Positions 25,087 to 60,689 of a DNA stretch of 64,000 nt are shown here, piece by piece (the stretch's first letter is position 1; every line of letters begins with the position of its first letter). The position numbers and the translations under genes are program-made. A model generated the notes under the pieces. The model was not told the origin of the DNA and did no database searches. It saw only the letters and a program-made list of their open reading frames with translations. Origin of the DNA: Niabella aurantiaca DSM 17617 (lineage in GTDB: Bacteria > Bacteroidota > Bacteroidia > Chitinophagales > Chitinophagaceae); NCBI RefSeq assembly GCF_000374125.1, contig NZ_KB893626.1:310001-374000 (forward strand). Reading direction: 5' to 3'.

Positions 25087-25158
25087 GGCCCGGTAGTTCA
25101 ATGGATAGAATAGGAGTTTCCTAAACTCTAGATACAAGTTCGATTCTTGTCCGGGCTA
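25087..25158 (+). tRNA. tRNA-Arg(CCT)
   Basis: The acceptor stem pairs 25087-25093 with 25151-25157 (a G.U at the first pair), followed by T8 A9. The anticodon stem GGAGT/ACTCT encloses the loop TTCCTAA with anticodon CCT at 25120-25122. The T-arm is ACAAG-TTCGATT-CTTGT. CCA is not encoded. The mobile island begins at the tRNA 3' end. Confidence 0.93.
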
Positions 25159-25396
25159 CTTAACGAAATACAATGCCAAATGTATCTCGTCTATTTATGC
25201 CACTAACTGATGGAATGCCACTAAGTTATAGTTGAGCTGTTGGCAGTTAGATTTTATGCCAATTAAACGCCCTCGTTTTTTACAACAAAAGACATAAAAT
25301 GATATAGGAGAGGGTATTAGCTTACTTTTTCATTAGTTCGATTTTCACTTAAGGATTTGCATGTTTCTCCCTTCCTATAACATTGAGCGATATGGT
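25157..25396 (+). repeat. left direct repeat of the mobile island
   Basis: About 240 bp beginning at the tRNA-Arg 3' end (TACTTAACGAAATACAAT) recur in the same orientation at 48601-48840, with roughly 85% identity by eye. The repeat includes the 3' part of the small gene at 25317-25529. It is the left border of the island. Confidence 0.85.
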
Positions 25397-25529
25397 AAAA
25401 AAAATCCAATATCAAAGCTGCTTCCTTGTGATTCACCTGAATATCATTTTTAGCCAATATTGCAATAGCTCGCTCAGTTGATATTCTCCGGTCGGTGAAA
25501 TGAGTAGGATTACGAACTGAACTATTCAT
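25317..25529 (-). CDS. small protein coupled to the serine recombinase
   Basis: The 70-aa product has no recognised domain. The ATG at 25529 overlaps the TGA of the upstream recombinase gene by four bases (ATGA), which indicates translational coupling and argues that it is a real gene. Its sequence is charged and probably helical (RRISTERAIAILAKNDI). A decayed version of its C-terminus (HIAQCY, then NEKVS in another frame) lies in the right direct repeat. A recombination directionality factor or accessory DNA-binding role is possible but unproven. Confidence 0.6.
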   Translation of the reverse strand: MNSSVRNPTHFTDRRISTERAIAILAKNDIQVNHKEAALILDFFYHIAQCYRKGETCKSLSENRTNEKVS

Positions 25530-27245: not shown

Positions 27246-30200
27246 ATGGATGCCTTTTTAACACACAATAGTGTCATTGACGATTATCGCAGCTACCTGA
27301 AATCTTTTTTATCCATTGCCGACGTAAGGATTCAGGAAGAAGTGCGGGGATCATTTGAAGGAGCCGGATTTATTCCCGAACCACTCATTCAATTTAATCC
27401 GGCTTATGTAGAGGGGCAATCGTTAGCGGACCTGGCCAGGGGAAGTAATGGTAAAATTAATAGCCAGCTACCCCAGGCGCTTGGTAACTACCGATTATTT
27501 CATCACCAGGTAGAAGCGCTACGTTTGGGTATTGAAGGAAAAGGATTTGTCGTAACCTCTGGTACCGGTTCTGGAAAATCACTCACCTATCTCTCCACAA
27601 TATTCAATGATATCTTGAACGCAGGCGCGGGTAAATCAAAAGGGATAAAGGCAATACTGGTTTATCCTATGAACGCCCTGATCAACTCACAGGAAGAAGA
27701 GATCAGGAAGTATGCAGACAATTATAAAAAGGCCTCAGATTTAGAATTCCCTGTCTCCTTTGCCAAATACACTGGCCAGGAAAAAGGAGAAGACAGGGAA
27801 CGCGTAGAACAAGAAGAACCAGATATTATATTAACCAACTACATGATGCTCGAGCTTATCATGACAAGAGCATCCGAATCTTGGCTGCGCACCTCGATAA
27901 AGAAAAGCCTGAAGTATTTAGTATTTGATGAGCTGCATACTTATAAAGGGCGGCAGGGTGCAGATGTAAGTATGCTTATCCGCAGGATACACAATCATTG
28001 TGAGCAACCGCTTATTTGTATCGGTACCTCTGCCACCATGGCATCACAGGGTTCTCCTGAAGAAAAAAAACAAGCTGTGGCCGCAGTAGCTACCAAAATA
28101 TTCGGCGCCGCCTATGCTTCAGCACAAATTATAGACGAACAGTTAAGAACCTGTACAGCAGGAAACCAACCCAATGCCATTGAACTGCGTAAAGCCGTGA
28201 TAGCCGGTATTGATTCCAATGCGGACGAAACAGTTTTTGTGCAGCACCCGCTTAGCAACTGGCTGGAACTGAATATAGCCTTATGGGATAATCAAGGCAA
28301 GCTGGAACGCGGCGTACCCCGATCTATTCCTGCTATGGCGCAAGCACTGAAGACAGCTACCGAAATTGAGGATACACTTGCTAGCAACACCATTAAAGAT
28401 CTTTTGCAATGGGCAGAAAAGCTCAATGAACGCAACCGGCCTTTTCGCAAATCCTATCTTCCCTTTCGCTTCCACCAGTTTATTGCACAAACCAGTACGG
28501 TAGCGGTAACCTTGGAATCGCGTGCACAGCGAAAGATCACCATACAGTCCGGGCGTTATGTAAAAGACGAAGAAGGGGAAAAATTACTCTACCCGCTGCT
28601 GTTCAGCCGCTACTCCGGCATCGACTTTATTTGTGTGGAAAAGGACACAAAGAACCAAGTATTAATGCCGCGCAACCCGGAAGCACCGATGGCCCTATAC
28701 ACACAAAAGGAACTAAAGGGTAATCAGCTCAATGAACACAACCTCCGTTTTGGTTACCTGTTGCTGGACGAGGGTGAAGCATTCTGGGATGATAATCTAT
28801 TGGATCTGGCACCTGAGAGTTGGCTGAATAATGCCGGTACTGAATTTTCATCGTATTATGAATGGCATATGCCACAACCGGTATATTTTAATTCTGCGGG
28901 CCAATACTCGCATCAGCCTCTTTATCCGTTAAAGGGTTATTATCTGCCGGTAAAACTCCGGGTAGATCCAACAGCGGGCATATTTTACGAAGATTCGAAA
29001 ACCAATGAAAATACAAAATTGATGAGCCTAGGGCATGAAGGTCGTGGTACCGCCACTACCATTATGTCGTACAGCATCGTAAAATCCCTACTGAAACAAC
29101 AGGAGGAAATACCCGATCAGAAACTGCTTAGTTTTACCGACAATCGGCAGGATGCTGCTTTACAAGCCGGGCACTTTAACGATTTTATTGCTACAGTCCG
29201 CCTGCGGGCTGGCTTGTATCAAGCAACGCAAAAAAATATAAATGGCTTGGATATCAATAATATCGCAGAGCGGGTATTGGATGAGTTAAAATTAAAGGAG
29301 GCAGATTATGCTAACCCTAATTTCATCGGCAAAGATCCTGATTTCCCGGAGCAGGAAAACGAAAAAGCTATCTGCACTTATATTCTTATACGCATTTTCC
29401 AAGATCTGAAAAAGGGTTGGCGTTACACCTTGCCTAACTTGGAGCAAACAGCTTTATTAAAAATAGATTATAATAGATTGGATAAGCTGAGTACAATGGA
29501 TGGGAAATTCCAGGGCATACAGTTACTGGATCAGGCTACACCGGAAAAAAGACAATATATACTGACCGAGCTCCTGAACTATTTCCGAACCAATTTTTCA
29601 ATCCATCATCGCTTGCTGATTGATGAAATCACGGAAGCAGAAAACCTGTTGCGCAACCGTCTGAATGAAAATAAACTCTGGGCACTGGATCATAATGAAA
29701 AGATAGACCGTCCTACATATATGGTTTCAATGAAGCCTGGACGCAGCACCCAAAGAGGTGTTTACTTTGCATCGATGGGCGCACGTTCCGGTATTGGTAA
29801 ATTTTTCAAACGTGAGTTTAGAGAAGCCGATATTCCCTGGCTAAATCAAAGTCAGTTCCGCGATTATATTGAACAGCTTTGCGATATATTAGTCAATACT
29901 ACTTTTCTTATACGAAAGGAGAACCTGCGGGGCGAGCGTGGTATGATCAATGGTTATTTACTGCGTTCGGACTGCTTGAGGTGGAAGCCGGGTGACGGAA
30001 GCACCGTAGCTACAGATCATACCCGTATGAATGCCTACCGACCGCTGAATCTATCACCTAACCCTTTTTTCCAGACACTTTACCAGACCGATTTTCAAAA
30101 ATTTGGCCGCGAGCTTATGGGCCGCGAACACACCGGGCAGCTCAGCGCACAAGACCGTATCAACCGGGAGACAGATTTCAGAACCGGTAAATTGGCCAGC

Positions 30201-32414
30201 CTATACTGCTCCCCAACCATGGAATTGGGGATCGATATTGCCAATCTCAATATTGTGCATATGCGTAATGTGCCGCCGAATCCCGCTAACTATGCACAAC
30301 GGAGTGGCCGTGCGGGCCGTAGCGGGCAAATGGCCCTGGTCATTACCTATTGCTCCGCATGGTCTCCGCATGACCAGAACTACTTCAAAGACGCAGGCAA
30401 AATGGTAGCAGGCTCTGTAGTCCCGCCGCGCATTGACCTGGCAAATGAAGAGTTGCTGAGCAGTCATTTCAATGCCTATATACTTATGGAGCTGGCGCTT
30501 AAAGAAATGCGCGCATCCGTATCAGACTTGCTGGATACCAGTAACGATCAGCTCATTACGGTAAAACCAGGCATTATAGCAGATATAGAACACCGCATAC
30601 ATAGGCAACAAGACACCTGGATTACCGAATTTAAAAAGGTGCTCCAAACCATTGCCCCGGCTTTGAGCAAAACCTGGTGGTATACCGATAACTGGCTCGA
30701 CCAACGAATCCACTCTTTTAAAGATCGATTTATTAATGCCTTTGATCGCTGGATCTATTTGTACAAGGCCGCCCGGAAAATGATAACCGAAGCACGTGCC
30801 ATCCTGGATGATATTACTATTAAGCAAGACAGCGATTTATATAAAGATGCCAAAAGAAGACATGCTGCGGGCTTAAACCAACAGGAGCTGTTAACCACAA
30901 ACAAAGAAATCGGAAGCGAATCAGAATTTTATGTTTTTCGCTACCTGGCCGCTGAAGGATTTTTGCCGGGTTATAATTTTACCCGCTTGCCAGTGCGGAC
31001 TTTTGTAGGCTATAAACATGCCGGCCAGGGAGAATATATTTCCCGAGCCAAAGGTGTTGCGCTTAGAGAGTTTGCCCCGCAAAATATACTGTATCACAAT
31101 GGCAGTAAGTACGAAGTAAACCGGATGAACTTGCTCAACCCGAAAGAGCAGCAACGAAAAATAAAAATCTCTCATGATACCGGCTATGCTTTTCTGGATG
31201 ATGAAGCCGAATGGGCCAATAATGACCCAATAACCCATATTGAATTAAAAGGGAACAATATGGAGTATAAAAATACGCTCATTGAATTAAGTGAGACCGA
31301 AGCCCGGCCCAGAGAGCGGATATCTTGTATTGAAGAAGAGCGTTCTTCCAAAGGATATACAATAGAGGAATACTTCCATTATGCTTCGGGTATAGAACAT
31401 TGCAAAGAAACTGTTGTCAAAAAAGCAGGGGCAGCATTGCTAAAGTTGATTTATGGCCAGTCCACCGATCTTATTTCACTCAACCGGCAGGCAAAACGCG
31501 CCACCAGAGAAGGATTTGCGCTGGATACCCGAAACGGTAAGTGGCTAACTCAAAAGGATCTGGAAGACCCAGATACGCTTGCCGCTAAAAGTGATGTATT
31601 ACTCTTTGTAAAAGAAACAGCAGATACTTTATACTTGCAGCCCCTTGCCAATTTAAAATTACAGCCGGAACAGATCATCAGTTTAAGCTATGCATTAAAA
31701 CGGGCTATTGAACTCCAATACCAGGTAGAAAGCAGCGAAATAGGGATCAGTATTATGGGACACCCTGATGCCCCTAACCTGCTTATCTATGAAGCAGCGC
31801 AAGGCAGCCTGGGCATATTATCGCAATTGATAACAGAACCCGTACAACTAAAAGAACTGTTTACGACAGCGTATAAAGCTATGCACTTTGACCCGGAAAC
31901 ACGCACGGAAACGGCTCATGGGAAAACATTGCCCCGCGCTTCCTACGAAGATTTGTTATCCTACTACAATCAGCGTCATCATGATATCCTGGACCGGCAC
32001 GCTATAAAAGAGCCTCTCGAATACCTGATGGATTGTGAAGTATCGCAGTTGAATGATGGTAATGACTATGAACAGCAATACCAGGCATTGCTACAAGCCT
32101 ATGACAGAAATAGCCATTCCGAGCTTCCACTGTTAAAGCATCTCTACCAACATAAGCTGGCGCTGCCTCATAAAGCACAAGTAAATATGAAAGATTTCTA
32201 CATCAGCGCAGACTTTATCTACAATACTACAAATGGACCTGTGTTGATCTTTTGTGACGGAAGTGTGCACGATCAAGCCGAAGTTCAGTCACAAGACGCC
32301 CATAAACGGAATCTGCTCAAAGATGCGGGTTATGACGTACTCGTATGGCATTATCAAACGCCAATAGAAGATTTTATTAATACACGGAAAGACATTTTCA
32401 AAAAACAAGGATAA
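27246..32414 (+). CDS. DEAD/DEAH helicase with DUF1998-type region and nuclease-like C-terminus
   Basis: The 1722-aa protein is a superfamily 2 helicase: Walker A TGSGKS at 107-112, DELH at 228-231, motif III GTSATM, and motif VI QRSGRAGRSG near 1020. The PTMELGIDIANL block and the later long region resemble helicases with a DUF1998 domain, such as DruE of Druantia and fused DrmA/DrmB of DISARM. The last 60 residues contain FCDGSVHD, a D..KR pair and GYDVLVWHY, a pattern like Vsr/PD-(D/E)XK nucleases. It is the first gene of a tight operon with a SNF2 helicase and a DNA methyltransferase, so antiphage defence is inferred. Confidence 0.85.
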   Translation: MDAFLTHNSVIDDYRSYLKSFLSIADVRIQEEVRGSFEGAGFIPEPLIQFNPAYVEGQSLADLARGSNGKINSQLPQALGNYRLFHHQVEALRLGIEGKGFVVTSGTGSGKSLTYLSTIFNDILNAGAGKSKGIKAILVYPMNALINSQEEEIRKYADNYKKASDLEFPVSFAKYTGQEKGEDRERVEQEEPDIILTNYMMLELIMTRASESWLRTSIKKSLKYLVFDELHTYKGRQGADVSMLIRRIHNHCEQPLICIGTSATMASQGSPEEKKQAVAAVATKIFGAAYASAQIIDEQLRTCTAGNQPNAIELRKAVIAGIDSNADETVFVQHPLSNWLELNIALWDNQGKLERGVPRSIPAMAQALKTATEIEDTLASNTIKDLLQWAEKLNERNRPFRKSYLPFRFHQFIAQTSTVAVTLESRAQRKITIQSGRYVKDEEGEKLLYPLLFSRYSGIDFICVEKDTKNQVLMPRNPEAPMALYTQKELKGNQLNEHNLRFGYLLLDEGEAFWDDNLLDLAPESWLNNAGTEFSSYYEWHMPQPVYFNSAGQYSHQPLYPLKGYYLPVKLRVDPTAGIFYEDSKTNENTKLMSLGHEGRGTATTIMSYSIVKSLLKQQEEIPDQKLLSFTDNRQDAALQAGHFNDFIATVRLRAGLYQATQKNINGLDINNIAERVLDELKLKEADYANPNFIGKDPDFPEQENEKAICTYILIRIFQDLKKGWRYTLPNLEQTALLKIDYNRLDKLSTMDGKFQGIQLLDQATPEKRQYILTELLNYFRTNFSIHHRLLIDEITEAENLLRNRLNENKLWALDHNEKIDRPTYMVSMKPGRSTQRGVYFASMGARSGIGKFFKREFREADIPWLNQSQFRDYIEQLCDILVNTTFLIRKENLRGERGMINGYLLRSDCLRWKPGDGSTVATDHTRMNAYRPLNLSPNPFFQTLYQTDFQKFGRELMGREHTGQLSAQDRINRETDFRTGKLASLYCSPTMELGIDIANLNIVHMRNVPPNPANYAQRSGRAGRSGQMALVITYCSAWSPHDQNYFKDAGKMVAGSVVPPRIDLANEELLSSHFNAYILMELALKEMRASVSDLLDTSNDQLITVKPGIIADIEHRIHRQQDTWITEFKKVLQTIAPALSKTWWYTDNWLDQRIHSFKDRFINAFDRWIYLYKAARKMITEARAILDDITIKQDSDLYKDAKRRHAAGLNQQELLTTNKEIGSESEFYVFRYLAAEGFLPGYNFTRLPVRTFVGYKHAGQGEYISRAKGVALREFAPQNILYHNGSKYEVNRMNLLNPKEQQRKIKISHDTGYAFLDDEAEWANNDPITHIELKGNNMEYKNTLIELSETEARPRERISCIEEERSSKGYTIEEYFHYASGIEHCKETVVKKAGAALLKLIYGQSTDLISLNRQAKRATREGFALDTRNGKWLTQKDLEDPDTLAAKSDVLLFVKETADTLYLQPLANLKLQPEQIISLSYALKRAIELQYQVESSEIGISIMGHPDAPNLLIYEAAQGSLGILSQLITEPVQLKELFTTAYKAMHFDPETRTETAHGKTLPRASYEDLLSYYNQRHHDILDRHAIKEPLEYLMDCEVSQLNDGNDYEQQYQALLQAYDRNSHSELPLLKHLYQHKLALPHKAQVNMKDFYISADFIYNTTNGPVLIFCDGSVHDQAEVQSQDAHKRNLLKDAGYDVLVWHYQTPIEDFINTRKDIFKKQG

Positions 32415-32415
32415 A

Positions 32416-35241
32416 ATGCCCGCGACAACCGAACACAAGCCCGGCACCCTGGTGCATTATCGCCAAAGAGACTGGATGGTACTTCCATCCGACAATGATG
32501 ACCTGCTTTGCATACGCCCCTTGGGCGGTTCCGAAGAAGAAACAACTGCAATTTATCTGCCATTACAACTGCCTTCTGAAAAAGTGACCTCGGCTAGGTT
32601 TCCGGAACCACAGGCAACCGATATCGGATCGTTTCATACGGCCAAAATGCTCTATGACGCCTTTCGCTTATCCTTTCGCAATGCTGCCGGTCCTTTTCGT
32701 TGCATGGGCAAGCTTTCCTTCCGGCCCAGGGCTTACCAGTTGGTGCCTCTGGTGATGGCGCTCCGGCAGGAAACCACCCGGCTTTTGATTGCGGATGATG
32801 TGGGTATCGGGAAAACAGTAGAAGCGCTTATTATCCTGAAAGAGTTTATGGAGCGCGGTGAAGTAAAGCGTTTTGCCGTTATATGCCCGCCCCATCTTTG
32901 TGAGCAATGGCAGCAGGAATTAAAAGACAAACTGGATATTGAAGCCGAGATTATACGATCCAGCACTGTCGCTATGCTGGACAGGCAATTGCCTGACGAC
33001 AGAAGTGTTTTTTATCACATACCTTTCCAGGTAATATCCATTGATTATATCAAAGCTGACAAACGACGGGGTATTTTTTTAAACGATTGTCCGGAATTTG
33101 TAATTGTTGATGAAGCGCATACCTGTGCCTTGCCAGAGGGGTCAAAGAGCAAGACACAGCAGCAACGGCATTTTTTATTAAATGATATAGCTAAAAACAA
33201 CGACCGGCAACTGATACTCCTTACTGCCACCCCACATAGTGGAAAGGACAAGGAATTTGCGTCCTTGCTGGGATTGCTCAGACCTGAATTCGACGGGCTG
33301 CAGTTTGATAAGCTGGAACAAAAACAAAGAGAAAAGATTGCCCGGCATTACATACAGCGTAAGCGCAAAAACATTCGCCACTGGCTCAATGAAGACACCA
33401 GCTTCCCAGAAAGAGATTCCAAAGAAGTAGGTTTTGCCTTAAGTAACGAGTATCAATACTTCTACAATAGCTTGTTACAGTTTGCAAGGGGTATTTCTGC
33501 GGGACAAACCCAAAATGAGCAGACCAAGCTATTACGTTCCTGGGCGGCGATTTCCCTAATAAAAGGCGCCATGAGTAGTCCGGCTATGGCCGTAGAAATG
33601 TTGCAAAAACGTAAAGAAAAGCTGGATACCCTTTCCCTGAACGACTGGACAGCAAGTACAGAAAGCAGTCTTAGTATTTTCGAGAACCTGGAACAGGTCG
33701 AAGATATGCCCCGCCAGGAATTGGTAGAAGCAATCGCTTCCACCACAGCAGAAAAAGCAAATGTAGAAGAGCTATACCAGCAGGCAGAAGCGCTATACCA
33801 AGCCCAATCCGATCAAAAAATAGACGCGACCATAAAACTGATAAAGCAATGGCTGAAAGAAGGATTTGATCCTATTATATTTTGCCACTACATTCCTACT
33901 GCAAACTATGTTGCTGAAAAGCTAAAATTAGCCCTGCCAAAGCATGTACACATAGAAGCTATCACCTCCGAGCTGGCCGATGAACAACGTCGCGAGCGAA
34001 TTGAAATCATGTCCCGCTCGGATCGCCGGGTGCTCGTAGCTACGGACTGTTTAAGTGAAGGAATCAATCTTCAGGAGCAATTTACCGCCATACTACATTA
34101 CGACCTTCCCTGGAACCCCAATCGTATTGAACAGCGAGAAGGCCGTGTAGACCGTTTTGGACAAGCGGCTCCAACCGTAAAAACATATATATTGTACGGA
34201 GAGAATAATGAAATGGACCTGTTCATTCTCGAAGTGCTCATCCGCAAAGTAAGAGAAATACAACGTTCAACCGGCGTTTCCATTACTATTGGTGCAGAAA
34301 GCAAATCCATTATGACCGAAGCCGCGCAAAGACTGTTACGCAGCGACCGGAAACATGGCGCTACCCAACAACAGCTTTTCCAGGATACGGAGGAGGTCAT
34401 TACAAACGAACTGGAACAGGCCCGTAAACGAGGAGAAAATATACGCAGTATTTTTGCGCACGAAACCATCGACCAGGAGGCCATTAAAACCGACTTGCTG
34501 CAGGTGGATGAAGCGATCGGAGACTTACAAACCCTGGAACATTTTGTAAGCGGAGCAATACAGCAATTGGGTGGCGTTTGCCAACCGGACGGAGCAGATG
34601 GGTATAGGCTGCAATTGGATAATTTACCTACCCACATACAAGCTTGCTTTAAAGATCCGTCCCTGGTCAAAATCAGCTTTTCATCACCTACCCCCAAAGG
34701 ATATACTTATGTAGGTCGCAATCATAAATTTACAGAATTGCTCTGCCAGTTTCTCATAGCGCTATCCTTTGAACCAAGAGATAGCTATGGTAAAATAGCC
34801 AGGGTATGCGAAGTGCAAACCAATAGCGTAAATACCAAAACGGTACTCGTTATGTTCCGGGTACGCAACGTGATCAAAGAAGTAAATGCCGCAAGAGAAA
34901 GTATAGCAGAAGAAATGTACCTATGGGGCTACAAAAGCGCCGATACTAAGATGGAAACACTTGACTTTGCAACTGCAAAAAACCTGCTGCTGCATGCACA
35001 AAGTTTAAGCAACCTTTCCCTTGACCGACAGCAGCAGGATATTGCTATGGAACTGAAACGCTTCGAGAGCCTAAAACCGCAATTTATGGAGCTGGCTAAC
35101 CTGCGCGCCGATCAGTTGGTGGCCGCACATGGCCGCTTTAAAACACTGGTAGGCGGCCGGCGGTATGAGAAAGCTACCCCGGTATTGCCCCCTGATGTAA
35201 TGGGAGTATACCTTTTAATGCCAAAACCCCAAGACCTGTAA
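32416..35241 (+). CDS. SNF2-family helicase of the defence operon
   Basis: The 941-aa Swi2/Snf2-type ATPase has Walker A in ADDVGIGKTVEA (about 126-137), motif II VDEAH at 231-235, motif III TATPHSG, and C-terminal helicase motifs CLSEGINLQ and EGRVDRFGQ (about 575). A long C-terminal region has no recognised domain. Its start is one base after the stop of the upstream helicase. It resembles DrmD, the SNF2 helicase of class 1 DISARM, in size and position beside a large adenine methyltransferase. It presumably translocates on DNA as part of the defence complex. Confidence 0.87.
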   Translation: MPATTEHKPGTLVHYRQRDWMVLPSDNDDLLCIRPLGGSEEETTAIYLPLQLPSEKVTSARFPEPQATDIGSFHTAKMLYDAFRLSFRNAAGPFRCMGKLSFRPRAYQLVPLVMALRQETTRLLIADDVGIGKTVEALIILKEFMERGEVKRFAVICPPHLCEQWQQELKDKLDIEAEIIRSSTVAMLDRQLPDDRSVFYHIPFQVISIDYIKADKRRGIFLNDCPEFVIVDEAHTCALPEGSKSKTQQQRHFLLNDIAKNNDRQLILLTATPHSGKDKEFASLLGLLRPEFDGLQFDKLEQKQREKIARHYIQRKRKNIRHWLNEDTSFPERDSKEVGFALSNEYQYFYNSLLQFARGISAGQTQNEQTKLLRSWAAISLIKGAMSSPAMAVEMLQKRKEKLDTLSLNDWTASTESSLSIFENLEQVEDMPRQELVEAIASTTAEKANVEELYQQAEALYQAQSDQKIDATIKLIKQWLKEGFDPIIFCHYIPTANYVAEKLKLALPKHVHIEAITSELADEQRRERIEIMSRSDRRVLVATDCLSEGINLQEQFTAILHYDLPWNPNRIEQREGRVDRFGQAAPTVKTYILYGENNEMDLFILEVLIRKVREIQRSTGVSITIGAESKSIMTEAAQRLLRSDRKHGATQQQLFQDTEEVITNELEQARKRGENIRSIFAHETIDQEAIKTDLLQVDEAIGDLQTLEHFVSGAIQQLGGVCQPDGADGYRLQLDNLPTHIQACFKDPSLVKISFSSPTPKGYTYVGRNHKFTELLCQFLIALSFEPRDSYGKIARVCEVQTNSVNTKTVLVMFRVRNVIKEVNAARESIAEEMYLWGYKSADTKMETLDFATAKNLLLHAQSLSNLSLDRQQQDIAMELKRFESLKPQFMELANLRADQLVAAHGRFKTLVGGRRYEKATPVLPPDVMGVYLLMPKPQDL

Positions 35242-35243: not shown

Positions 35244-38200
35244 ATGACATTTTCCGCTATTCATATACAAGGAAACATGATCAGCAGCGAAGTGCTGGAT
35301 AAAATACGGACAGAAGACATCCGGTTCCAGGCTGCGAAAGATTTTAAGCTAAGCGCTCATACACCCGTAAGAGACGAGATCAGTATAGCCTGGTCCCTGG
35401 CTCTGTCACACTGGGAAGTATTTAAAAAGAAGAAAGAACAGCTTTCAGAAACAGATTCCGGCACCTCCGACACCAGGAAATACTGGATGCTGCCGTTAAT
35501 GAACCTGTTAGGTTTTGAATTGAGCAGCGCCACGGCAGAAACCCTCAATAATAAAACCTATGCGATCAGTCACCGAGCGACTAACCTAGATGGATTCCCC
35601 ATACATATAGTGGGCGTGCAGCAATCATTAGATAAACGTTCCGAAACCGGCGGGCCACGGCTTTCGCCCCATGCCCTCACCCAGGAATACCTGAATAACC
35701 AGGAACATCTGTATGCCCTGGTCAGTAATGGTAAATTTTTACGATTACTGAGAGATGCTACCCGCTTAAGTCGTTTCAGTTATCTGGAATTCAACCTGGA
35801 GCAAATCATGGAGGAGCAGCTATATGCAGAATTTGCGCTGCTGTTTCGCTTGCTTCATGCCAGCCGTATGCCGCAGAAAATGGATACCGGTGCCGATAGC
35901 ATACTTGAGTATTACCACCAGGAAGCCCTTGCCCATGGCAGCCGCATCCGGGAAAAGCTAAGCGAAGCTGTAGAGCAATCCATCAAGGAAATTGCAAATA
36001 GTTTTCTGAAGCATCAGGCCAACGAAAGCCTGCGACAGGCAATAGCAGCGCATGCAATAACCGCAAAAGACTATTACATCAGCAATCTTCGGTTGATTTA
36101 TCGCATTCTTTTTTTAATGGTTATTGAAGACCGGAAGCTGGTTTATCCTGAAACCAGGGATGCGGAACTGGAAGCCCTACGCAAAATCTATTACGCGAAT
36201 TATAGCGTACAACGTATTACCGCTTTAGCAGGTAAAAAAGTATTCGTAGAGCCCGAAAAAAATGATCTCTGGCTATCGCTCCAAACCTGTTTTGCACTTT
36301 TTGAGCATAAAGAATACGGAAAGACACTGGGTATTGCACCCTTAGGTTCTGGATTATTTGCCCCCGAAGCGCTGCGCAGCCTTACCGGGCAGATGCTGAG
36401 CAACCAGCACCTGCTAAGCATACTACGCCGGCTCACCACATTTAAAAACGCGACTGGCCAATGGGTAAGGGTAAACTATGCAGACCTGGATGTAGAAGAG
36501 TTTGGTTCCGTGTATGAAGGGCTATTGGAATACGAACCTGATTTCAGCGCAGGGACCTTTATCTTTAAAGCGGGCAGCGGGCGACGGGATAGCGGCAGCC
36601 ATTACACACCGGAAGAACTGGTAAAACCACTGATACAGCACTCCCTGGAACACCTGATACAAGAACGATTAAAAGTCTCCAACCCTGAAGCCGCGTTATT
36701 GTCCCTGAAAATATGTGATGTTGCCTGCGGCAGCGGGCATATATTGTTATCTGCCGCCAGGAAGATAGGCTTCGAGCTGGCGCGTATTCGCAGCGGAGAA
36801 GACCAGCCATCGCCATCCGTATTGCGTCATGCTATTGGCGATGCGATCCGGCATTGCATTTATGGAGTAGATAAAAATCCGCTGGCGGTAGAGCTTTGTA
36901 AAGTGGCCATGTGGCTCGAAGCCCATGAGCCGGGACAACCCCTCAACTTCCTGGATCACCACATCAAATGCGGCGATGCTATCCTGGGCCTGGCACATAG
37001 GGAAGAATTGGAAAAGGGTATCGCAGACGAGGCGTTTAAAACTCTTGCCGGCGACGAAAAGGAAATTGCCGCCGCCTTATTAAAAAAGAACAAGCAAGAA
37101 CGAAAAAAATACAACGCGAGCAATACCGCACAGCAGTTGACCATTGATCAGCAGGTGGATACTACATTACAGGAATCCATGGCAGAATATAAAGCCTTTA
37201 GTCGATTGCCGGAAACTAGTCCTGAAGAAATTGCCCGTAAAGTAAAAGCCTATAAAAAATTCATTGACGGTAAAGGATATATTTTCCTGAAAGCCCTTGC
37301 CGATCTGCAGGTAGCTCAGTTTTTCATTCCAAAAACCACAAGCAACAAAGAAAAATTCGTTACAGATGCAGAATACAGGCTTATCCTAAGCGGGTATAAG
37401 AGTTGGCAAAGCACGCAGGTAGCCAGAGCCACCGTAGCAGCCCAGGAGCACCATTTCTTTCACTGGTTCATCGAGTTTCCAGAAGTATTTAGCGAAGGTG
37501 GATTTGACTGCATTCTGGGTAATCCGCCGTTTTTAGGCGGTCAAAAACTGACCGGTACCTTTGGTGACGCCTTCCTGGAATTTATCAAATACGAATATGC
37601 CCCAATTGGCGCCGTGGATCTGGTTACCTATTTTTTTAGACGCATATTCAGTATAATAAAAAAAGACGGATTCCAGTCCCTTATCTCTACCAATACCATT
37701 GCACAAGGTAAGGCCAGAGAAGGTGGCCTGGACGTTATTAAAGAAAGAGGCGGCGCTATTAACCATGCCGTAAGAAGTATGCGTTGGCCGGGTGAAGCTG
37801 CCGTAGAAGTATCGCTGGTGACCATTACCAAAAGAGCCTGGAACAAAAAGTACTTCCTGGACAACAAAGAGGTACAAACCATTACTCCCTATCTGGATGA
37901 TTCCCTGGTGATAGGAAATCCATTTCCTCTGAAGCAGAATGCAGGCAAAAGTTTTCAAGGCAGCATTGTGTTGGGAAAGGGCTTCATACTCTCGCCAGAT
38001 GAGGCTGAGGCGCTTATTGCCAAAGATCCGCGAAATAGAGAAGTTTTATTTCCCTATCTGAATGGTGACGACCTAAACAATGACCCACAGCAGCAATCGT
38101 CTCGTTGGGTAATCAATTTCTTTGACTGGCCGGAAGAGAAAGCTCGTAGCTATCCGGATTGTTTCGAGATTATAGAACGCCTAGTGAAACCAGAAAGACA

Positions 38201-39026
38201 GCGATGGAAATTAGATGAGCATGGAAATGAGATAGTAGGCGTCTTTGCTCTAAGAGGGGCGCGCGCTCTAAAGTGGTGGCAACATGCAGAAAGAGCAAGT
38301 GCCTTATATAGGTCTATATCTCAGTTAGACCAGGTCATGGTGGTTGCTAGAATAAGCAAAACGCTTGCGATGTGTTTTGTTGATCGTAATACAGTTTTTG
38401 CAGATGCACTTGTTGTATTTAATAATGAGCAATTCTCAATTTTTGGTGTTATGCAATCCACACTTCATAATATATGGGCTTGGAAATATTGTACAACAAT
38501 GAAATCAGATTTGAATTATACACCTGGAAACGTTTTTGAAACATTCCCTTTTTTACAGTTTCATAACCAAGAGGACCCTGTGTTAATGCAGATCAGCACT
38601 CAATATTATAATTTCCGAAAGAAGCTGTTACAAGACACCCAAATCGGACTAACAAAAGCTTATAATTTAGTTCATGATGATTCTTTAAAGCAAATAAATG
38701 ATATTGAGTATTTTTCAGATAAAGACTTTGAAAAAAAATTTGGCAAAGATTCTTTATGGCTTAGGAAACATCTACAACGTTTAAATGGCATTACATTTAA
38801 TGAAGTTGTGACGTTTATACAAGAATTACGATCCTTACAAGTCAAACTAGATAAGACGGTCTTGCAAGCTTATGGCTGGGAGGATATAAATCTATTACAT
38901 GACTTTTACGAATTGGATTATCTTCCCGAAAATGATCGTACCCGTTTTACAATACATCCTGACGCCCGGAAAGAGGTGCTCAAAAGATTGTTAGAATTAA
39001 ATCACAGACAGAGTTTACATACTTAA
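35244..39026 (+). CDS. large N6-adenine DNA methyltransferase with switchable C-terminus
   Basis: The 1260-aa protein resembles PglX/DrmMI and type IIL enzymes. The methyltransferase core has motif I VACGSGHIL near 490 and motif IV NPPF at 760-763. The C-terminal third (from residue 887, SLVIGNPFPLKQNAGKSF) is the likely target-recognition domain. This exact junction carries a 57-bp sequence repeated in inverted orientation at 40103-40159, where an alternative C-terminus is encoded. Inversion would give a 1223-aa protein with another specificity. Its start is two bases after the SNF2 gene. It should mark self DNA, and may take part in recognition. Confidence 0.88.
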   Translation: MTFSAIHIQGNMISSEVLDKIRTEDIRFQAAKDFKLSAHTPVRDEISIAWSLALSHWEVFKKKKEQLSETDSGTSDTRKYWMLPLMNLLGFELSSATAETLNNKTYAISHRATNLDGFPIHIVGVQQSLDKRSETGGPRLSPHALTQEYLNNQEHLYALVSNGKFLRLLRDATRLSRFSYLEFNLEQIMEEQLYAEFALLFRLLHASRMPQKMDTGADSILEYYHQEALAHGSRIREKLSEAVEQSIKEIANSFLKHQANESLRQAIAAHAITAKDYYISNLRLIYRILFLMVIEDRKLVYPETRDAELEALRKIYYANYSVQRITALAGKKVFVEPEKNDLWLSLQTCFALFEHKEYGKTLGIAPLGSGLFAPEALRSLTGQMLSNQHLLSILRRLTTFKNATGQWVRVNYADLDVEEFGSVYEGLLEYEPDFSAGTFIFKAGSGRRDSGSHYTPEELVKPLIQHSLEHLIQERLKVSNPEAALLSLKICDVACGSGHILLSAARKIGFELARIRSGEDQPSPSVLRHAIGDAIRHCIYGVDKNPLAVELCKVAMWLEAHEPGQPLNFLDHHIKCGDAILGLAHREELEKGIADEAFKTLAGDEKEIAAALLKKNKQERKKYNASNTAQQLTIDQQVDTTLQESMAEYKAFSRLPETSPEEIARKVKAYKKFIDGKGYIFLKALADLQVAQFFIPKTTSNKEKFVTDAEYRLILSGYKSWQSTQVARATVAAQEHHFFHWFIEFPEVFSEGGFDCILGNPPFLGGQKLTGTFGDAFLEFIKYEYAPIGAVDLVTYFFRRIFSIIKKDGFQSLISTNTIAQGKAREGGLDVIKERGGAINHAVRSMRWPGEAAVEVSLVTITKRAWNKKYFLDNKEVQTITPYLDDSLVIGNPFPLKQNAGKSFQGSIVLGKGFILSPDEAEALIAKDPRNREVLFPYLNGDDLNNDPQQQSSRWVINFFDWPEEKARSYPDCFEIIERLVKPERQRWKLDEHGNEIVGVFALRGARALKWWQHAERASALYRSISQLDQVMVVARISKTLAMCFVDRNTVFADALVVFNNEQFSIFGVMQSTLHNIWAWKYCTTMKSDLNYTPGNVFETFPFLQFHNQEDPVLMQISTQYYNFRKKLLQDTQIGLTKAYNLVHDDSLKQINDIEYFSDKDFEKKFGKDSLWLRKHLQRLNGITFNEVVTFIQELRSLQVKLDKTVLQAYGWEDINLLHDFYELDYLPENDRTRFTIHPDARKEVLKRLLELNHRQSLHT
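37901..37957 (+). repeat. 57-bp inverted repeat, left copy (inside methyltransferase gene)
   Basis: This stretch, starting TTCCCTGGTGATAGG and ending GTTTTCA, is a perfect reverse-complement match to 40103-40159. Homology continues less perfectly inward. It encodes SLVIGNPFPLKQNAGKSF and sits at the fixed/variable junction of the methyltransferase. Confidence 0.95.
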
Positions 39027-39144
39027 CCTTCTTTGGCGAATAAGTTAAACAAAAGCGCTCTCAATATTTTTTAATTAATCTTAGCTACAAATTAATCAAT
39101 AGTTGATAAGTTCGGATAAATTTGTTGTCTTCTTGATGGTCAAT

Positions 39145-40159
39145 CTAATTATGATGTAGCTCATGGTTCAATTGTAAAAGACGTTTTAGTATTTCTTTTC
39201 GGGCGTCAGGATGTATTGTAAAACGGGTACGATCATTCTCAGGTAAATATTCCAACTCATAGAAATTATGCCTTAATTGAATATCTTCCCACTCGTAAGC
39301 CTTTATAATATCTTTGTCGATAGCAATTTGGATTTGTCGAATCTGGATTAAATAGTCTTCTAGGTCGCCATTGTATGATTGACTATGAACTAAATTATAT
39401 AAATCCGTTAGGCCAATTTGATTATTTGCAGTTATTGATTTTCTAAAGTCGCTTAGGGACTGTGCAAGTCTAACAGTATCTGCATTATTATTTCTACTAG
39501 GAAAAGGAAATGCTTCAAACGCCTTGCCTCCGGAATACCTCAGGGTTGCAGAACCCTTTGTAGAACTATGCTTCCAAGCCCATACTTCATGCACAACAGA
39601 TGATAAAATAGCAAAATCAAAATATGTTTCGAACGCTATAACAACAATCGAATCCGTAAATATAATATTTCTGCTGGGTTGAAAATCTAGCAGTAAATGT
39701 TTTGTATTTCGATTGATTGCCATGACCTGGTCTAACTGAGAAATAGTCTCGTACAAGGCTGGGCGCTTCTCTCCATAAATCCACCACTTTTGTGGTAAAG
39801 GCTTTCGTAAAGCATAGGTTCCAACCAGTTCCTTTCCATTTTCGTCAACTTTCCAACGCTGTCTTTCTGGTTTCACTAGGCGTTCTATAATCTCGAAACA
39901 ATCCGGATAGGTGCGCGCCCTTTCTTCACTCCAGTCGAAAAAGTTAATCACCCAACGAGATGCTTTCTGCTCGGGATTGTTATTCAGGTCATCTCCATTC
40001 AGGTACGGGAAAAGTACGTCCTTATTACGCAGATCTTTGGCAATAAGCGCTTCAGCTTCTTCTGGGCTTAACACAAAGCCCTTTCCCAGCACAATGCTAC
40101 CCTGAAAACTTTTGCCTGCATTCTGCTTCAGAGGAAATGGATTTCCTATCACCAGGGAA
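39145..40159 (-). CDS. silent alternative methyltransferase C-terminus (target-recognition cassette)
   Basis: The frame encodes about 337 residues aligning to the C-terminal 374 of the active methyltransferase. Identity is high at both ends (IGNPFPLKQNAGKSF, and ENDRTRFTIHPDARKE) and low in the middle, as expected of alternative recognition domains. It lacks a catalytic core, an obvious start and a promoter: the coding similarity begins exactly at the 57-bp inverted repeat. It is read toward the active gene, so inversion of 37901-40159 joins it in frame. It should be silent in the orientation shown. Confidence 0.88.
40103..40159 (-). repeat. 57-bp inverted repeat, right copy (start of silent cassette)
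   Basis: This is the exact reverse complement of 37901-37957. The matching stops abruptly at 40159, where the silent cassette also begins, which marks it as a recombination boundary. Confidence 0.95.
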
Positions 40160-40256
40160 ATACGCTAAAAATGTTGCAAATCCTTGCAGTGCAGGCTTCT
40201 CCGTACTTTGGTTTGAAGTAAATTGATAAATTACACTTCATAAATACTTCAATAAT

Positions 40257-41414
40257 ATGAATACAAAGATTTCATACAGCTTCATTTTAAAACCAGAAAC
40301 CAACAGGTCGGGACTTCACCCTGTATATATCAGAGCGTTCAAACAGGGTAAAAAAACGGAAATAGCCACCTCCGTAGCCTTACAAAAAGATGATTGGTCC
40401 GAACAAAAGCAGCGGGTAAAAAAGAAAAATCGGGCCCATGAAAAATATAATGCTATTCTGGATGCCTTTGATAAAAAAGCCTTGAAATATGTGCTGGATC
40501 ACTTTATTCAGGAAGACACGCCTTTAACCTTGGGTCAGTTCAAAGACTATATGCTTTCAGTGGGACAGTCTGGAGAGAGTTTTACTGATTACATACTCAA
40601 CTATCTGAACCAAAATAGATCACGTCTAAAGCTAGAGACCTGGTGGAGCTATAAATCACAAATTACCAAACTGTTGAAATTTAAAAAGAGAATCGCCTTC
40701 GCTGATATTACGGAAAAATTCATTAATGACTATCACCACTATATGCTGCGAGTACTCGGTAACAACGAAAACACAGCCAGCAAAAGTTTACGATCACTTA
40801 GAACTTTCGCAAATATTTCCATGCGGTATGGCTATATGAAACAAAATCCATTCCGATACATAAATATCAAAAAGGTAGATGGCAAGCGAGATTTTTTAAC
40901 TAGAGAAGAACTCGGCAGATTATCCGAAGCTTACTGGCAAAATAAGGTTGCAGATGCAAAAGAAAGAGAGATTCTTCGTTACTTCTTATTTGCATGTTAT
41001 ACGGGCCTACGTTATTCCGATTTAAAAACACTCAATTACTCTTCGGTTCTTGAAAACAGTATTCAGCTTAAAATGCATAAAACAGGCTATCTTGTAAATA
41101 TACCACTAACGCAAAGAGCAAAGCTAATACTTATCAGTAGTCAAAACAATCCATTTAATAGTATATTTCGTGTTTACTGTAACAAAGTAACTAATCGCAT
41201 ACTTAAGCAGATAGGCCGGCGGTATAATATACCCAAAAAGCTTACCTGTCATGTTGCTCGACATACCTTTGCCACAATATCGATTACCCTTGGTATTCCC
41301 ATCGAGGTGGTTAGTAAACTGCTAGGCCACACAAATCTAAAAACAACCCAGGTGTATGCTAAAATAGTAGACAGTGTGAAAGAACGAGAAATGTCCAAAT
41401 GGGATAAGTTATAA
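40257..41414 (+). CDS. tyrosine recombinase, candidate invertase
   Basis: The 385-aa site-specific recombinase has an N-terminal arm-type domain, a SAM-like core-binding domain (about 105-200) and a catalytic domain with Arg in TGLRYSD, HVARHTFA (H-x-x-R), LLGHT and Tyr in TTQVYAKI. All catalytic residues are present. It is of the Bacteroidota type often found beside invertible DNA. It begins 97 bp from the right inverted repeat of the methyltransferase switch, so it probably performs the inversion. A role in moving the modules bounded by the 65-bp repeats is an alternative, since one copy lies 76 bp after its stop. Confidence 0.9.
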   Translation: MNTKISYSFILKPETNRSGLHPVYIRAFKQGKKTEIATSVALQKDDWSEQKQRVKKKNRAHEKYNAILDAFDKKALKYVLDHFIQEDTPLTLGQFKDYMLSVGQSGESFTDYILNYLNQNRSRLKLETWWSYKSQITKLLKFKKRIAFADITEKFINDYHHYMLRVLGNNENTASKSLRSLRTFANISMRYGYMKQNPFRYINIKKVDGKRDFLTREELGRLSEAYWQNKVADAKEREILRYFLFACYTGLRYSDLKTLNYSSVLENSIQLKMHKTGYLVNIPLTQRAKLILISSQNNPFNSIFRVYCNKVTNRILKQIGRRYNIPKKLTCHVARHTFATISITLGIPIEVVSKLLGHTNLKTTQVYAKIVDSVKEREMSKWDKL

Positions 41415-41708: not shown

Positions 41709-42810
41709 TTCATAAATAGTCTAAAATAAGATATTTTTGCGTCATGGAAACGCAAAAGAATTATTGGTGAAAGAAAGCCTCCCGGAGCTGAAAGGTTACT
41801 TTAAAAATGCGAGCAACAGAATACGCCCGAGAGTGCAGATGTTGCTGGTGATGAAGCAAAGCAAAACGATGCTGACCAAATATGAGTTGGCTCAGCAGGT
41901 GGGTGTTAATCACAACAGTATTACAGCCTGGCGCAAACTTTATGAAATTGGCGGTATAGCCACCATCCTGCAACACAACCAAGGTGGCAAACGCAGAGAA
42001 GTGATAGATGCTGCCACACATAAGGCTATAGAGAAAAGGCTTACCAACCCTAAGGAGGGTTTTCGCAGTTATAAAGAATTACAGCAATGGGTGGACGAGC
42101 ACTATGTCAAAAACATCAAGTACATCACTGTTTTAAAACATGTGCAACAAAAATTTGGCGCAAAGCTAAAGACTGCTCGTAAAAGCCACGTTAACAAAGA
42201 CGAACAAGCCGTAGAGACTTTTAAAAAAACTCCCATCAGCACTTCAAAAACACATTAAAAATAAAGACAATAAGTATAAATCCTTCAACTTATATTTTCA
42301 AGACGAAAGTAGATTTGGGTTATTTACCCGGGTAGGCAGGATACTTACAGCAAGGGGCATACAGCCTATATGTCCTTATCAGCATAAGTTTGACAACACA
42401 TATCTTTTCGGTGCTTTCTCGCCCATCACAGGCGATAGCATGCTGTTAGAACTTCCTTATTGTAATACCGATATGTTCCAATATTTTTTAGAACAACTTT
42501 CTGTACAAAAACCACAAGAACTGCAATTTGTGATTTTGGACAATGGTGCTTTCCATAAAGCCAAAAGACTTCAGGTGCCTGATAATATCATCCTTATTTT
42601 TTTACCCCCTACAGTCCGGAACTTAATCCCGCAGAGCTTGTTTGGAAATTTATCAAATCCTTTATTACCAATAAAACATTTAAAACACTCGAAGAACTTT
42701 CTGATGAACTTACCAACATCATCAACATACAACTCACTACCGAAAGAATAATTTCTATTACTTCATTTCAATTTTATGTAGACACTTTTTTGACTAATTA
42801 TGAATTATAA
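41709..42810 (+). mobile_element. IS630-family insertion sequence, decayed
   Basis: Imperfect terminal inverted repeats are TTCATAAATAGTCTAAAATA (from 41709) and the complement of TTTTTTGACTAATTATGAA (to about 42804). Between them lies a transposase split over several frames: N-terminal helix-turn-helix (41764-42230), catalytic part with LYFQDESRFG and VILDNGAFHK (DDE), and a C-terminal part with ELNPAELVWKFIKS. Exact ends and target duplication are not certain. Confidence 0.7.
41743..42810 (+). pseudogene. IS630 transposase with three frame breaks
   Basis: The likely start METQKN (ATG 41743) runs into a stop after eight codons while the body continues in another frame (KESLPELKGYFKN onward). 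A second break occurs in a run of seven A residues near 42226-42232, where the reading frame must move to reach LPSALQKHIKN. A third is in a run of five C residues near 42604, just before the YSPELNP catalytic block. Frameshifting at A runs is known in this family, but three breaks argue for an inactive copy. Confidence 0.75.
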
Positions 42811-43430: not shown

Positions 43431-43742
43431 ATGAAAAAAAATAGATTTCAAATACTGCCTACCACGGCTAAAATACTAGCCGAATTTGGTGAAAACATCA
43501 AACTGGCCAGGTTACGAAGAAAGTTAAGTGCAGAGCAGGTTGCTGAACGGGCAAACATAAGCCGACCCACCTTACTTTCAATTGAAAAAGGTATGCCTGG
43601 CGTTGCCTTTGGCTCTTACGCACAGGTACTTTTTGTATTGAACCTGGAGAAAGATTTATTAAAAGTAGCAGTAGATGATACATTAGGAAGAAAATTACAG
43701 GATGCGGAGCTTACAGTAAAAGAAAGAGCTCCTAAAAAATGA
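43431..43742 (+). CDS. HipB-like antitoxin, XRE-family regulator
   Basis: The 103-aa protein has an XRE helix-turn-helix at about 20-70 (ENIKLARLRRKLSAEQVAERANISRPTLLSIEKG, in part). Its stop overlaps the start of the downstream hipA-like gene by four bases (ATGA), the normal antitoxin-toxin arrangement. It should bind its own promoter and neutralise HipA. The promoter carries two perfect palindromes. Confidence 0.85.
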   Translation: MKKNRFQILPTTAKILAEFGENIKLARLRRKLSAEQVAERANISRPTLLSIEKGMPGVAFGSYAQVLFVLNLEKDLLKVAVDDTLGRKLQDAELTVKERAPKK

Positions 43743-45010
43743 ACGAAATACACATGGCAACCAACATAAAAAAAGATATACAGGTATATGCACACTGGCA
43801 GGATTTACAGGATCCGGCAATCATGGGTACATTATCTGTTTCACCAGCCAAAGGCAAAGAATCTTTTTCCTTTGAATATGCAGATGTATGGCTAAAGTCA
43901 GGCTTTTCTCAAACGATTGACCCCGATTTGCAATTATATTCAGGCGCATATTATCCACGGGGGGATAAACCCAATTTTGGTGTCTTTTTAGATTCATGCC
44001 CCGATAGATGGGGCCGTGTATTAATGCAGCGCAGGGAAGCCGCAATAGCAAAGCAGGAAGGCCGGACAGTAAAAAAATTATTGGAATCGGATTTTTTATT
44101 AGGAGTATTTGATGGACATCGCATGGGTGCATTACGTTTTAAAGCAGAACAGAATGGTCCATTTTTAAATGATAATAAAGAAATGGCTGCACCACCATGG
44201 ACATCATTAAGAGAATTGGAGCATGCAAGTTTGAAGCTTGAAGAAGACAACACAGACGACCCCGAATATGTAAAGTGGTTAAGTATGTTGATAGCTCCTG
44301 GTTCGTCATTAGGCGGTGCAAGGCCAAAAGCGAGCGTCGTAGATGCAGTCAATAATTTGTGGATTGCAAAATTCCCCAGCAAGAATGATGAAAAAGATGT
44401 AGCAGCATGGGAAATGACAGCAAACCAGCTGGCAATAAATGCCGGCTTAAACATAGCAGAAGGAAAACTTCAAAAATTCAACAATAAATATCATACCTAC
44501 CTCACAAAGCGTTTCGATAGAACGGCAGATAATAAACGCATTCACTTTGCATCAGCAATGACATTATTGGGGTATATTGATGGAGATGATGCTGCAGGCG
44601 CAAGTTATCTCGAACTGATGGAATTTATATCAAAACATGGTGCCTCAGTAGAAAAAGATTTAGAAGAACTCTGGCGTAGAATCGTATTCAGTATATGCAT
44701 AAAAAATACAGACGACCACTTGCGAAATCATGGCTTTCTGCTTACTAATAAAGGCTGGTTGTTATCACCAGCCTATGATATTAACCCTAATGAATACGGC
44801 AAAGGGTTAAGTATAAATATCACTGATACAGATAACTCACTTGATTTGAACTTGGCAAGAGAAGTAGCTGGTTATTTTCGTCTATCAGATAAAAAAGCGG
44901 ATAGCGTAATCCACGAAACTTCAGGTGTCGTTAAAGATTGGAAAAAAATAGCCTCCACTTATAAAATATCAAATGCCGAACAGGAAAGGATGTCTGCAGC
45001 ATTTATTTAA
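43739..45010 (+). CDS. HipA-family serine/threonine kinase toxin
   Basis: The 423-aa protein has a Gly-rich loop GSSLGGARPK (about 185-194), the catalytic KNTDDHLRNHGF and the metal-binding SPAYDINPN, in the order and spacing of HipA kinases. E. coli HipA phosphorylates glutamyl-tRNA synthetase and induces dormancy; other HipA proteins have other targets. ATG 43739 overlaps the hipB stop; a second ATG at 43754 is also possible. As part of a defence island it may act by abortive infection, which is inference. Confidence 0.87.
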   Translation: MNEIHMATNIKKDIQVYAHWQDLQDPAIMGTLSVSPAKGKESFSFEYADVWLKSGFSQTIDPDLQLYSGAYYPRGDKPNFGVFLDSCPDRWGRVLMQRREAAIAKQEGRTVKKLLESDFLLGVFDGHRMGALRFKAEQNGPFLNDNKEMAAPPWTSLRELEHASLKLEEDNTDDPEYVKWLSMLIAPGSSLGGARPKASVVDAVNNLWIAKFPSKNDEKDVAAWEMTANQLAINAGLNIAEGKLQKFNNKYHTYLTKRFDRTADNKRIHFASAMTLLGYIDGDDAAGASYLELMEFISKHGASVEKDLEELWRRIVFSICIKNTDDHLRNHGFLLTNKGWLLSPAYDINPNEYGKGLSINITDTDNSLDLNLAREVAGYFRLSDKKADSVIHETSGVVKDWKKIASTYKISNAEQERMSAAFI

Positions 45011-52579: not shown

Positions 52580-52601
52580 GTGCTGCTATTTGCCTGTATA
52601 G

Positions 52602-52635
52602 GGCTGTTTCAATTTCCCGAAACAGCCATTTTTGT
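52602..52635 (+). terminator. rho-independent terminator after GH20
   Basis: GGCTGTTTC (52602-52610) and GAAACAGCC (52619-52627) form a perfect 9-bp stem with an 8-nt loop, followed by ATTTTTGTTTT. Confidence 0.88.
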
Positions 52636-56574: not shown

Positions 56575-56595
56575 AATTTTAAAAATCACCTGATC

Positions 56596-58293: not shown

Positions 58294-58336
58294 TGATGTA
58301 AAGATTCTTCGTAGAATTAGTAAAATACTTATTCGA

Positions 58337-58375
58337 CCAGCCGCACAAAGGGATCTGCGGCTGGTTGTTTTATTT
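58337..58375 (+). terminator. rho-independent terminator after susD
   Basis: CCAGCCGCA (58337-58345) and TGCGGCTGG (58356-58364) form a perfect 9-bp stem with a 10-nt loop, followed by TTGTTTTATTT. Confidence 0.88.
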
Positions 58376-58510
58376 AATAGAACAAGGACCTTCATGCCAA
58401 TAGAATACAACATAAAAGACTACCCATTATGGCGGAAACGGCGATTACACCGGCCAGCTTCCGCCCGAAGGCCTGCCGAAACCTCATTCGTATCTGCAGG
58501 CAAAAGAATT

Positions 58511-59404: not shown

Positions 59405-59431
59405 GAGCTTAAGTTAAATCTTCAATTAAAA

Positions 59432-59494: not shown

Positions 59495-59552
59495 GATTAT
59501 TATTGGTTTATGATTGTTTTGTAATTTTTATTTTATATAGAATATTTTTATT

Positions 59553-60683: not shown

Positions 60684-60689
60684 ATTACA

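Follow-up and report, generated by a model that had tools for sequence, protein, structure and literature searches.

Background

The closest described counterparts of the system reported here are the inverting Type I hsdS loci. In Streptococcus suis, according to the passages of PMC7394358 that concern it, a four-way hsdS switch is made up of inverted repeats, an inverted spare copy and an adjoining recombinase, giving four combinations; the pneumococcal six-way SpnD39III/cod switch provides, with its recombinase PsrA, a precedent for one enzyme acting at several repeats, and the relevant part of PMC7096588 reports in vitro inversion by PsrA at three different repeats. By protein class, the nearest counterpart is pglX of BREX, present in Lactobacillus rhamnosus as full and partial copies with an integrase between them, for which the passages of PMC7513527 dealing with this locus claim phase variation. 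Here we describe a related arrangement in a 64,000-nucleotide (nt) stretch of the genome of Niabella aurantiaca DSM 17617 (contig NZ_KB893626.1, positions 310,001 to 374,000; hereafter the window), where the methyltransferase gene of a three-gene defence system fitting ARMADA Type I very probably carries, to judge from its sequence and those of its relatives, a two-site, four-state inversion switch (shufflon) of the recognition domain.

As in the inverting hsdS loci covered by those passages, there are repeats ahead of the first recognition unit and between both units, an inverted spare copy, a recombinase and four combinations. In hsdS systems, however, HsdS is a separate subunit with two target recognition domains (TRDs), whereas here an MmeI-type domain is fused to a single-chain PglX-like methyltransferase that belongs to a helicase-based defence. 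With BREX pglX, as portrayed in the same part of PMC7513527, the locus shares the related class of methyltransferase and the combination of a spare copy with a site-specific integrase, but the defence system is a different one, and the passages in question mention neither an internal second site nor re-pairing of blocks.

Two pairs of inverted sites at the methyltransferase gene

The methyltransferase gene (35244..39026, +) codes for a PglX/DrmMI-like N6-adenine enzyme with a fused MmeI-type recognition domain, 1260 amino acids (aa) long in the arrangement found (DrmMI, 1e-228; Eco57I, 8e-22; MmeI_TRD, 4e-14 at residues 911-1104). Site 1 is located where the methylase core gives way to the recognition domain; its expressed copy, a 57-nt arm, occupies 37901..37957 (+), and its spare copy 40103..40159 (-), with a 33-nt core at 40126-40158. 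A first-pass annotation of the sequence had reported a perfect inverted repeat at this junction with both copies in one codon phase, and indeed the two are identical across all 57 nt, each in phase 2. The pair is the longest exact inverted repeat of the window, and the locus holds the top three (57, 54 and 38 nt); since the longest inverted repeat elsewhere in the window is a 23-nt hairpin at 59446-59495, a chance origin can be excluded. Beyond 37901 and 40159 the similarity ends abruptly, with agreement at 4 of the 12 outer bases considered, and inward of the repeat the arms are 79% complementary across 390 nt. A 27-nt piece of the repeat occurs in the N. aurantiaca genome (25 contigs, 5.93 Mb) in these two copies only, even with up to 3 mismatches allowed. 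In a predicted model of the methyltransferase (mean predicted local distance difference test score, pLDDT, 79; predicted template modelling score, pTM, 0.59), site 1 corresponds to residues 886-897, a low-confidence linker after the methylase domain.

The alternative C-terminus that the annotation had placed in the opposite orientation is an open frame at 39145..40152 (-), tail to tail with the expressed one and 335 aa long when counted from a GTG inside site 1 (DrmMI, 1e-104 at 4-333; MmeI_TRD, 1.6e-8). Ahead of the GGA codon in site 1 it continues for 6 open codons to an in-frame stop, the GTG within the repeat being the sole upstream start codon, and this short upstream frame fits a spare copy that would be silent. 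In all 10 loci that were translated the spare frame is open, and its domain profile is kept in the window. Inversion of 37901-40159 in silico gives a product of 1223 aa in place of 1260 aa, which reproduces the lengths previously given. The tyrosine recombinase (40257..41414, +; 385 aa; Phage_integrase, 9e-18, with SAM-like and arm DNA-binding domains) begins 97 nt past the spare copy of site 1, the distance already noted in the annotation.

The same annotation took the locus for a two-state switch, a view that has to be given up in favour of four possible products, as the recognition domain itself contains a second site. The expressed copy of site 2, formed by the ISQLDQVM codons, is at 38316..38339 (+), and the spare copy, which has one mismatch to the consensus, at 39721..39744 (-); a 22-nt exact inverted pair (38319-38340/39720-39741) is part of it. 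In the predicted model, site 2 corresponds to residues 1025-1032, a low-confidence stretch inside the recognition domain. Between the sites lies block 1 (expressed, 37958..38315, +; spare, 39745..40102, -), followed beyond site 2 by block 2, which includes the stop codon (expressed, 38340..39026, +; spare, 39145..39720, -). The MmeI_TRD match at 911-1104 covers parts of both blocks. The two C-termini had been described as similar at their ends and different in the middle; this is not simply so, with two blocks that are exchanged separately. When the segment was inverted in silico at neither site, at site 1, at site 2 or at both, four distinct in-frame proteins of 1260, 1223, 1223 and 1260 aa were obtained.

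In the mechanism that we propose, a flip at site 1 would swap the whole C-terminus (blocks 1 and 2) and a flip at site 2 would swap block 2 alone, so that the two combined could pair either block 1 in frame with either block 2, each site having its inverted partner in the spare C-terminus downstream. The inversion would be performed by the adjoining tyrosine recombinase, and each combination of blocks may read a different DNA motif, in which case self-marking and phage targeting would be diversified within a clone. By analogy with MmeI and HsdS, each block may read a part of the motif; the exchanged blocks overlap the MmeI_TRD match.

Two more exact inverted repeats are found in the segment. 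The 54-nt repeat, within block 1 and off both sites (38150..38203, +; 39857..39910, -), suggests a gene-conversion tract in addition to site-specific flips. The 38-nt repeat, close to the C-terminal ends (38931..38968, +; 39200..39237, -), was considered as a third conserved site and rejected, because it has no run of single-codon columns of the kind described below. A symmetry search of both sites with a crude script yielded nothing usable.

The cassette and its recombinase in related loci

One scan of a genome collection with two peptide patterns gave 168 stretches encoding a relative, and the best 80 of the 168 were used. The three genes are complete in 38 of these 80 named loci, with the same order and strand in 37 of the 38. 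At least 2.5 kb of downstream sequence is available for 32 complete loci, and 8 of the 32 carry an inverted spare C-terminus; set against ARMADA Type I as given in the sections of PMC12458937 that define it, the spare cassette and the recombinase are additions, present in 8 of 32 testable loci. At a threshold of 50% identity across more than 300 residues, a recombinase is found in all 8 cassette loci versus none of the 24 others. Pattern searches provided three further loci (L130, L132 and L133), each with a recombinase match beside the cassette. Altogether 13 loci, the window included, have both site pairs, and all 12 that retain a right flank have a recombinase match; in Chryseobacterium sp. 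FH2 (L037) the cassette is present and the contig stops before the recombinase. The same layout is found in Taibaiella, Pedobacter, Chryseobacterium and Flavobacterium. Inverted partial copies that have repeats where site 2 would be, in differing versions, were also seen in Sphingobacterium sp. T2 (L052, 9172-10780) and in a Prevotellaceae metagenome-assembled genome (MAG; L071, 13166-14737); their contigs stop before site 1, they were left out of the 13, and they perhaps represent further site/recombinase groups.

On a tree of the core, the 10 cassette loci included need 2 state changes, compared with a mean of 8.9 in 500 shuffles, none of which was that low, and L076, in which no cassette was seen, sits among them. 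Taibaiella and Pedobacter are close neighbours on this tree yet belong to different families, which points to horizontal transfer.

Among the recombinases, the R-K-HxxR-H-Y residues, presumably catalytic with the roles known for the family, show no variation in any of the 10 relatives aligned, a set that leaves out the frame-broken copies of L132 and L133. Directly upstream of the start codon, a paired motif ACTTCAtAAATACTTCA / ACTTCAnAAnnACTTCA (40235..40251, +) is kept at the 10 loci compared; as a guess, it could be an arm-type binding or autoregulation site. The ten recombinases compared are 73-93% identical within group A, 79-99% within group B and 59-63% between the groups, which are the same as those formed by site 1 (see below), and therefore site and enzyme vary together.

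Conservation of the sites at the nucleotide level

Group A consists of the window, Taibaiella, Pedobacter and a MAG labelled Bacteroides (the latter three being L032-L034), and group B of Chryseobacterium and Flavobacterium. In group A, 33 nt of site 1 (37902-37934 in the window) are the same throughout the 8 copies from the four genomes, and 34 nt in 7 of the 8; in L032, identity between the copies stops at these 34 nt on both sides. Group B has GGAAAACCTATGCC in common at the corresponding codons. Site 2 is shared by both groups: 25 of 26 copies from the 13 loci match ATATCTSAGTTAGACCAGGTMATG, synonymous codons included, and encode ISQLDQVM or ISELDQVM. Of the invariant residues for which there is a choice of codon, 84 lie outside the sites in group A and 86 in group B, and single-codon columns account for 4 and 6 of these, respectively. 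At the sites such columns form unbroken runs, 6 and 7 columns long for site 2 and, for site 1, 7 long in group A and 3 long in group B; in the 20 copies from 10 loci codons are frozen in runs at these two places only. Naive estimates of the probability that seven such columns stand in a row are 5e-8 and 8e-7; they ignore the kinship of the rows.

Relatives without a recognised cassette do not have LDQVM at the position of site 2 (absent in 26 of 26 aligned, with L052 left out as too short), and LDQVL occurs in a single distant locus out of the 80 named ones, all of which were searched. In another comparison, rows were left out by length (L035, L049, L069, L073, L097 and L052). Searches with the site-2 pattern gave matches in 2 of 395, 4 of 398 and 3 of 173 genomes, with none for a reversed control pattern in each; the samples of 395 and 398 overlap (for example, in G463). 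Of the 8 different genomes matched, the 6 that were checked have this locus, and G934 and G964 resemble L057 and L037, respectively, by their coordinates. The group A version of site 1, sought in 396 genomes of the order with 2 mismatches allowed, was found in the N. aurantiaca genome itself and once in G089. The G089 match, with 2 mismatches, was taken as chance because the region has no meaningful methyltransferase or recombinase match (best E value, 2.6). Viral contigs contained no methyltransferase relative and no exact match to the 27-nt piece of site 1, and among plasmid records there were 7 with methylase matches, each covering at most 10% of the query.

Rearrangements between related genomes

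As natural REARRANGEMENTS, the arrangements of related loci were compared by blastn in 7 locus pairs, orientation being judged by the best match. Between C. oranimense (L057) and L133, the core is 98.9% identical over 2647 nt and the right flank is collinear (95.3%), and the expressed block 1 of L057 equals the spare block 1 of L133 (0 mismatches and 2 gaps in 426 nt), with both copies of block 2 unmoved (729 nt in each without a mismatch, with 2 and 1 gaps). This pattern is explained either by two flips, outer and inner, or by one gene conversion of block 1. The F. ichthyis locus (L080) is collinear with that of F. ajazii (L081), at 98.9%, up to 13036, just beyond site 2 (13010-13033), and collinearity resumes at 14441, near the second site 2; the spare block 2 of L080 matches the expressed one of L081 in inverted orientation (86.7% over 480 nt). 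Similarly, the spare block 2 of L036 and the expressed one of L061 are 94% identical over 480 nt. Part of the segment is inverted in 6 of the 7 pairs (L057/L133, L080/L081, L061/L036, L037/L080, L057/L081 and L130/L081). Of the inter-locus pairs with at least 80% identity, 4 of 10 for block 2 and 17 of 40 for block 1 join an expressed to a spare copy, and the two copies of block 2 within each of the 13 loci are 63-69% identical at the nucleotide level.

The contig of L037 ends in the alternative core junction. Its repeat is 170 nt long because, after site 1, the contig enters the core a second time, so that in the assembly both C-termini are attached to the core, possibly as an artefact. Both arrangements are therefore seen between close genomes and at this contig end, and short inverted sites stand with an adjoining recombinase gene, as in a shufflon. 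It had been stated beforehand that a single orientation in deep long-read data and in related genomes would refute inversion; among related genomes, L057/L133 and L080/L081 do differ, and together with the L037 junction they support the invertible recognition-domain switch of a defence methyltransferase that the first-pass annotation had proposed.

Alternative explanations

What can be read from the genomes themselves are both pairs of sites with their conservation down to the nucleotide, the four open frames, and rearrangements ending at the sites; several observations nevertheless weigh against a four-state switch. The single mismatched copy of site 2 is the spare one of the window, and from the window's own strain one arrangement only is known. 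The spare block 1 of L057 has only a 91% counterpart in the expressed position of L133 (13 mismatches, 23 gaps), where, moreover, two flips are indistinguishable from a single block-1 exchange by gene conversion. The expressed block 2 of L080 has no partner at the 80% level in the spare copy of L081, and cassette replacement is therefore mixed in. L032 and L033 are collinear throughout, and some inverted blastn matches are expected without any flip because the expressed and spare C-termini are paralogous. In L132 and L133, the methyltransferase and recombinase matches are split over several frames. As sites 1 and 2 are unlike, one recombinase serving both is a guess, and recombination of pneumococcal spnIII is, in the words of the title of PMC6620402, independent of all known site-specific recombinases.

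It should be considered whether site 1 is the sole recombination site, the identity at site 2 being due to protein constraint or homologous exchange. Site 1 by itself yields the 1260/1223 pair, and the 54- and 38-nt tracts show that exact identity can arise without a conserved site; we nonetheless regard this as quite unlikely, given that site 2 is fixed in synonymous codons in all but one copy, that LDQVM is missing from the aligned relatives without a recognised cassette, and that the breakpoints of L080/L081 fall at site 2 and the blocks of L057/L133 are re-paired. The same exact tracts could also mean that there is no programmed switch at all, the spare C-terminus being a decaying duplicate and the mosaics products of homologous recombination or gene conversion, often between species; the near-identical L032 and L033 systems in different families, which point to horizontal exchange, and the unmatched block 2 of L080 also favour this reading. 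Such decay is very unlikely in view of the open spare frames with the domain profile retained in the window, of exchange points that are short and identical across genera, and of a recombinase family that tracks the cassette (8 of 8 loci against 0 of 24). Finally, as has been put forward for BREX pglX, inversion could serve chiefly as an on/off device or as relief from toxicity, with a change of specificity being incidental: the passages of PMC7513527 on this point tie PglX heterogeneity to phase variation overcoming toxic effects. This too is unlikely, and diversification fits better, because all four arrangements of the window are open (1223-1260 aa) and the expressed and spare copies of block 2 differ in each of the 13 loci.

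The two-site, four-state switch is more elaborate than was first read, and its logic equals that of four-way hsdS switching. We lean slightly towards a fuller picture, in which the recognition domain would be split into separately swapped halves each reading part of the target, one recombinase would act at two unlike, protein-coding sites, a clone would have four ARMADA specificities, and cassettes would be traded between genera via mobile islands.

Probable assignment of the operon to ARMADA Type I

The first gene of the operon (27246..32414, +) codes for a 1722-aa YprA/DruE-like DEAD/DEAH helicase with an MrfA Zn-binding (MZB, DUF1998-type) end. Its best PADLOC matches are to DruE (DruE3, 1e-86), DrmA reaching just 3e-12, and in Pfam the DEAD and Helicase_C domains pass the cut-off, with MZB at 24.1 bits versus a cut-off of 24.2. 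The second gene (32416..35241, +) codes for a 941-aa BrxHII/RapA/DrmD/DpdE-like SNF2 helicase (DpdE, 4e-163; DrmD, 3e-86; BrxHI/HII, 3e-57), and the methyltransferase gene follows. The closest solved relative of the methyltransferase, by sequence and by fold, is MmeI chain 5hr4; in the fold search MmeI comes first (E 9e-17) and PglX/BrxX second (2e-12), and the matches were used for family rather than geometry because the template modelling (TM) scores are low (0.20-0.30).

DISARM class 1 comprises drmA, drmB and the phospholipase D gene drmC, along with drmD and drmMI. No phospholipase D (drmC-like) family was found among the 11 island open reading frames (ORFs) scanned with Pfam, and the system was for this reason not filed under DISARM; the DruE-like helicase and the weak DrmA score also argue against it. 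The order of genes in ARMADA Type I, as listed in the relevant part of a preprint by Bell et al. 2025 (PMC12458937), is YprA-like helicase, BrxHII-like helicase and PglX-like methyltransferase. The operon of the window has this order and hence fits ARMADA Type I, and DruE as the best PADLOC match agrees with the statement there that ARMADA YprA is closest to Druantia. The cluster tested against phages was, according to the same portion, of Type II and not Type I. The first-pass annotation had known of no description of a switch in such a system; the three genes do correspond to a described type, as far as those sections of PMC12458937 go. As to the inversion, the main text has no word starting with "invert", "phase vari" or "Bacteroid", and no paper on inversion in DISARM or ARMADA was found in the literature searched, which most subscription journals lie outside.

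A probable island around the operon

A direct repeat (25136-25394/48577-48835; 262 columns, 84.7% identical) begins inside a tRNA-Arg(cct) gene (25087-25159). Between its copies lie the ARMADA genes, the gene of a large serine recombinase (25526-26998, -) and others, and the whole has the appearance of a 23-kb island sited at a tRNA gene. It contains two short ORFs at 41737-42751 with HTH_32 and DDE_3 matches, apparently a broken transposase, which we take to be of IS630 type; a helix-turn-helix (HTH) regulator followed by a HipA_C-domain protein (43431-45010), likely a toxin-antitoxin-like pair; and a 998-aa AAA_11/AAA_12 superfamily-1 helicase (45439-48435) with weak likeness to anti-phage helicases. 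At 50687-62303 there is a glycan-use region with a GH20 hexosaminidase, a SusC/SusD-type pair and an alpha-L-fucosidase, ordinary for Bacteroidota.

Implications

ARMADA has been named only recently, and nothing that we encountered explains how its methyltransferase separates self from foreign DNA. The switch proposed here would carry four-way switching of specificity beyond separate HsdS subunits, to a methyltransferase fused with its recognition domain. With re-paired blocks in near-identical genomes, one can ask whether protection follows the methyl motif and which half reads which bases, and also how a defence built on helicases can survive when its own mark changes.

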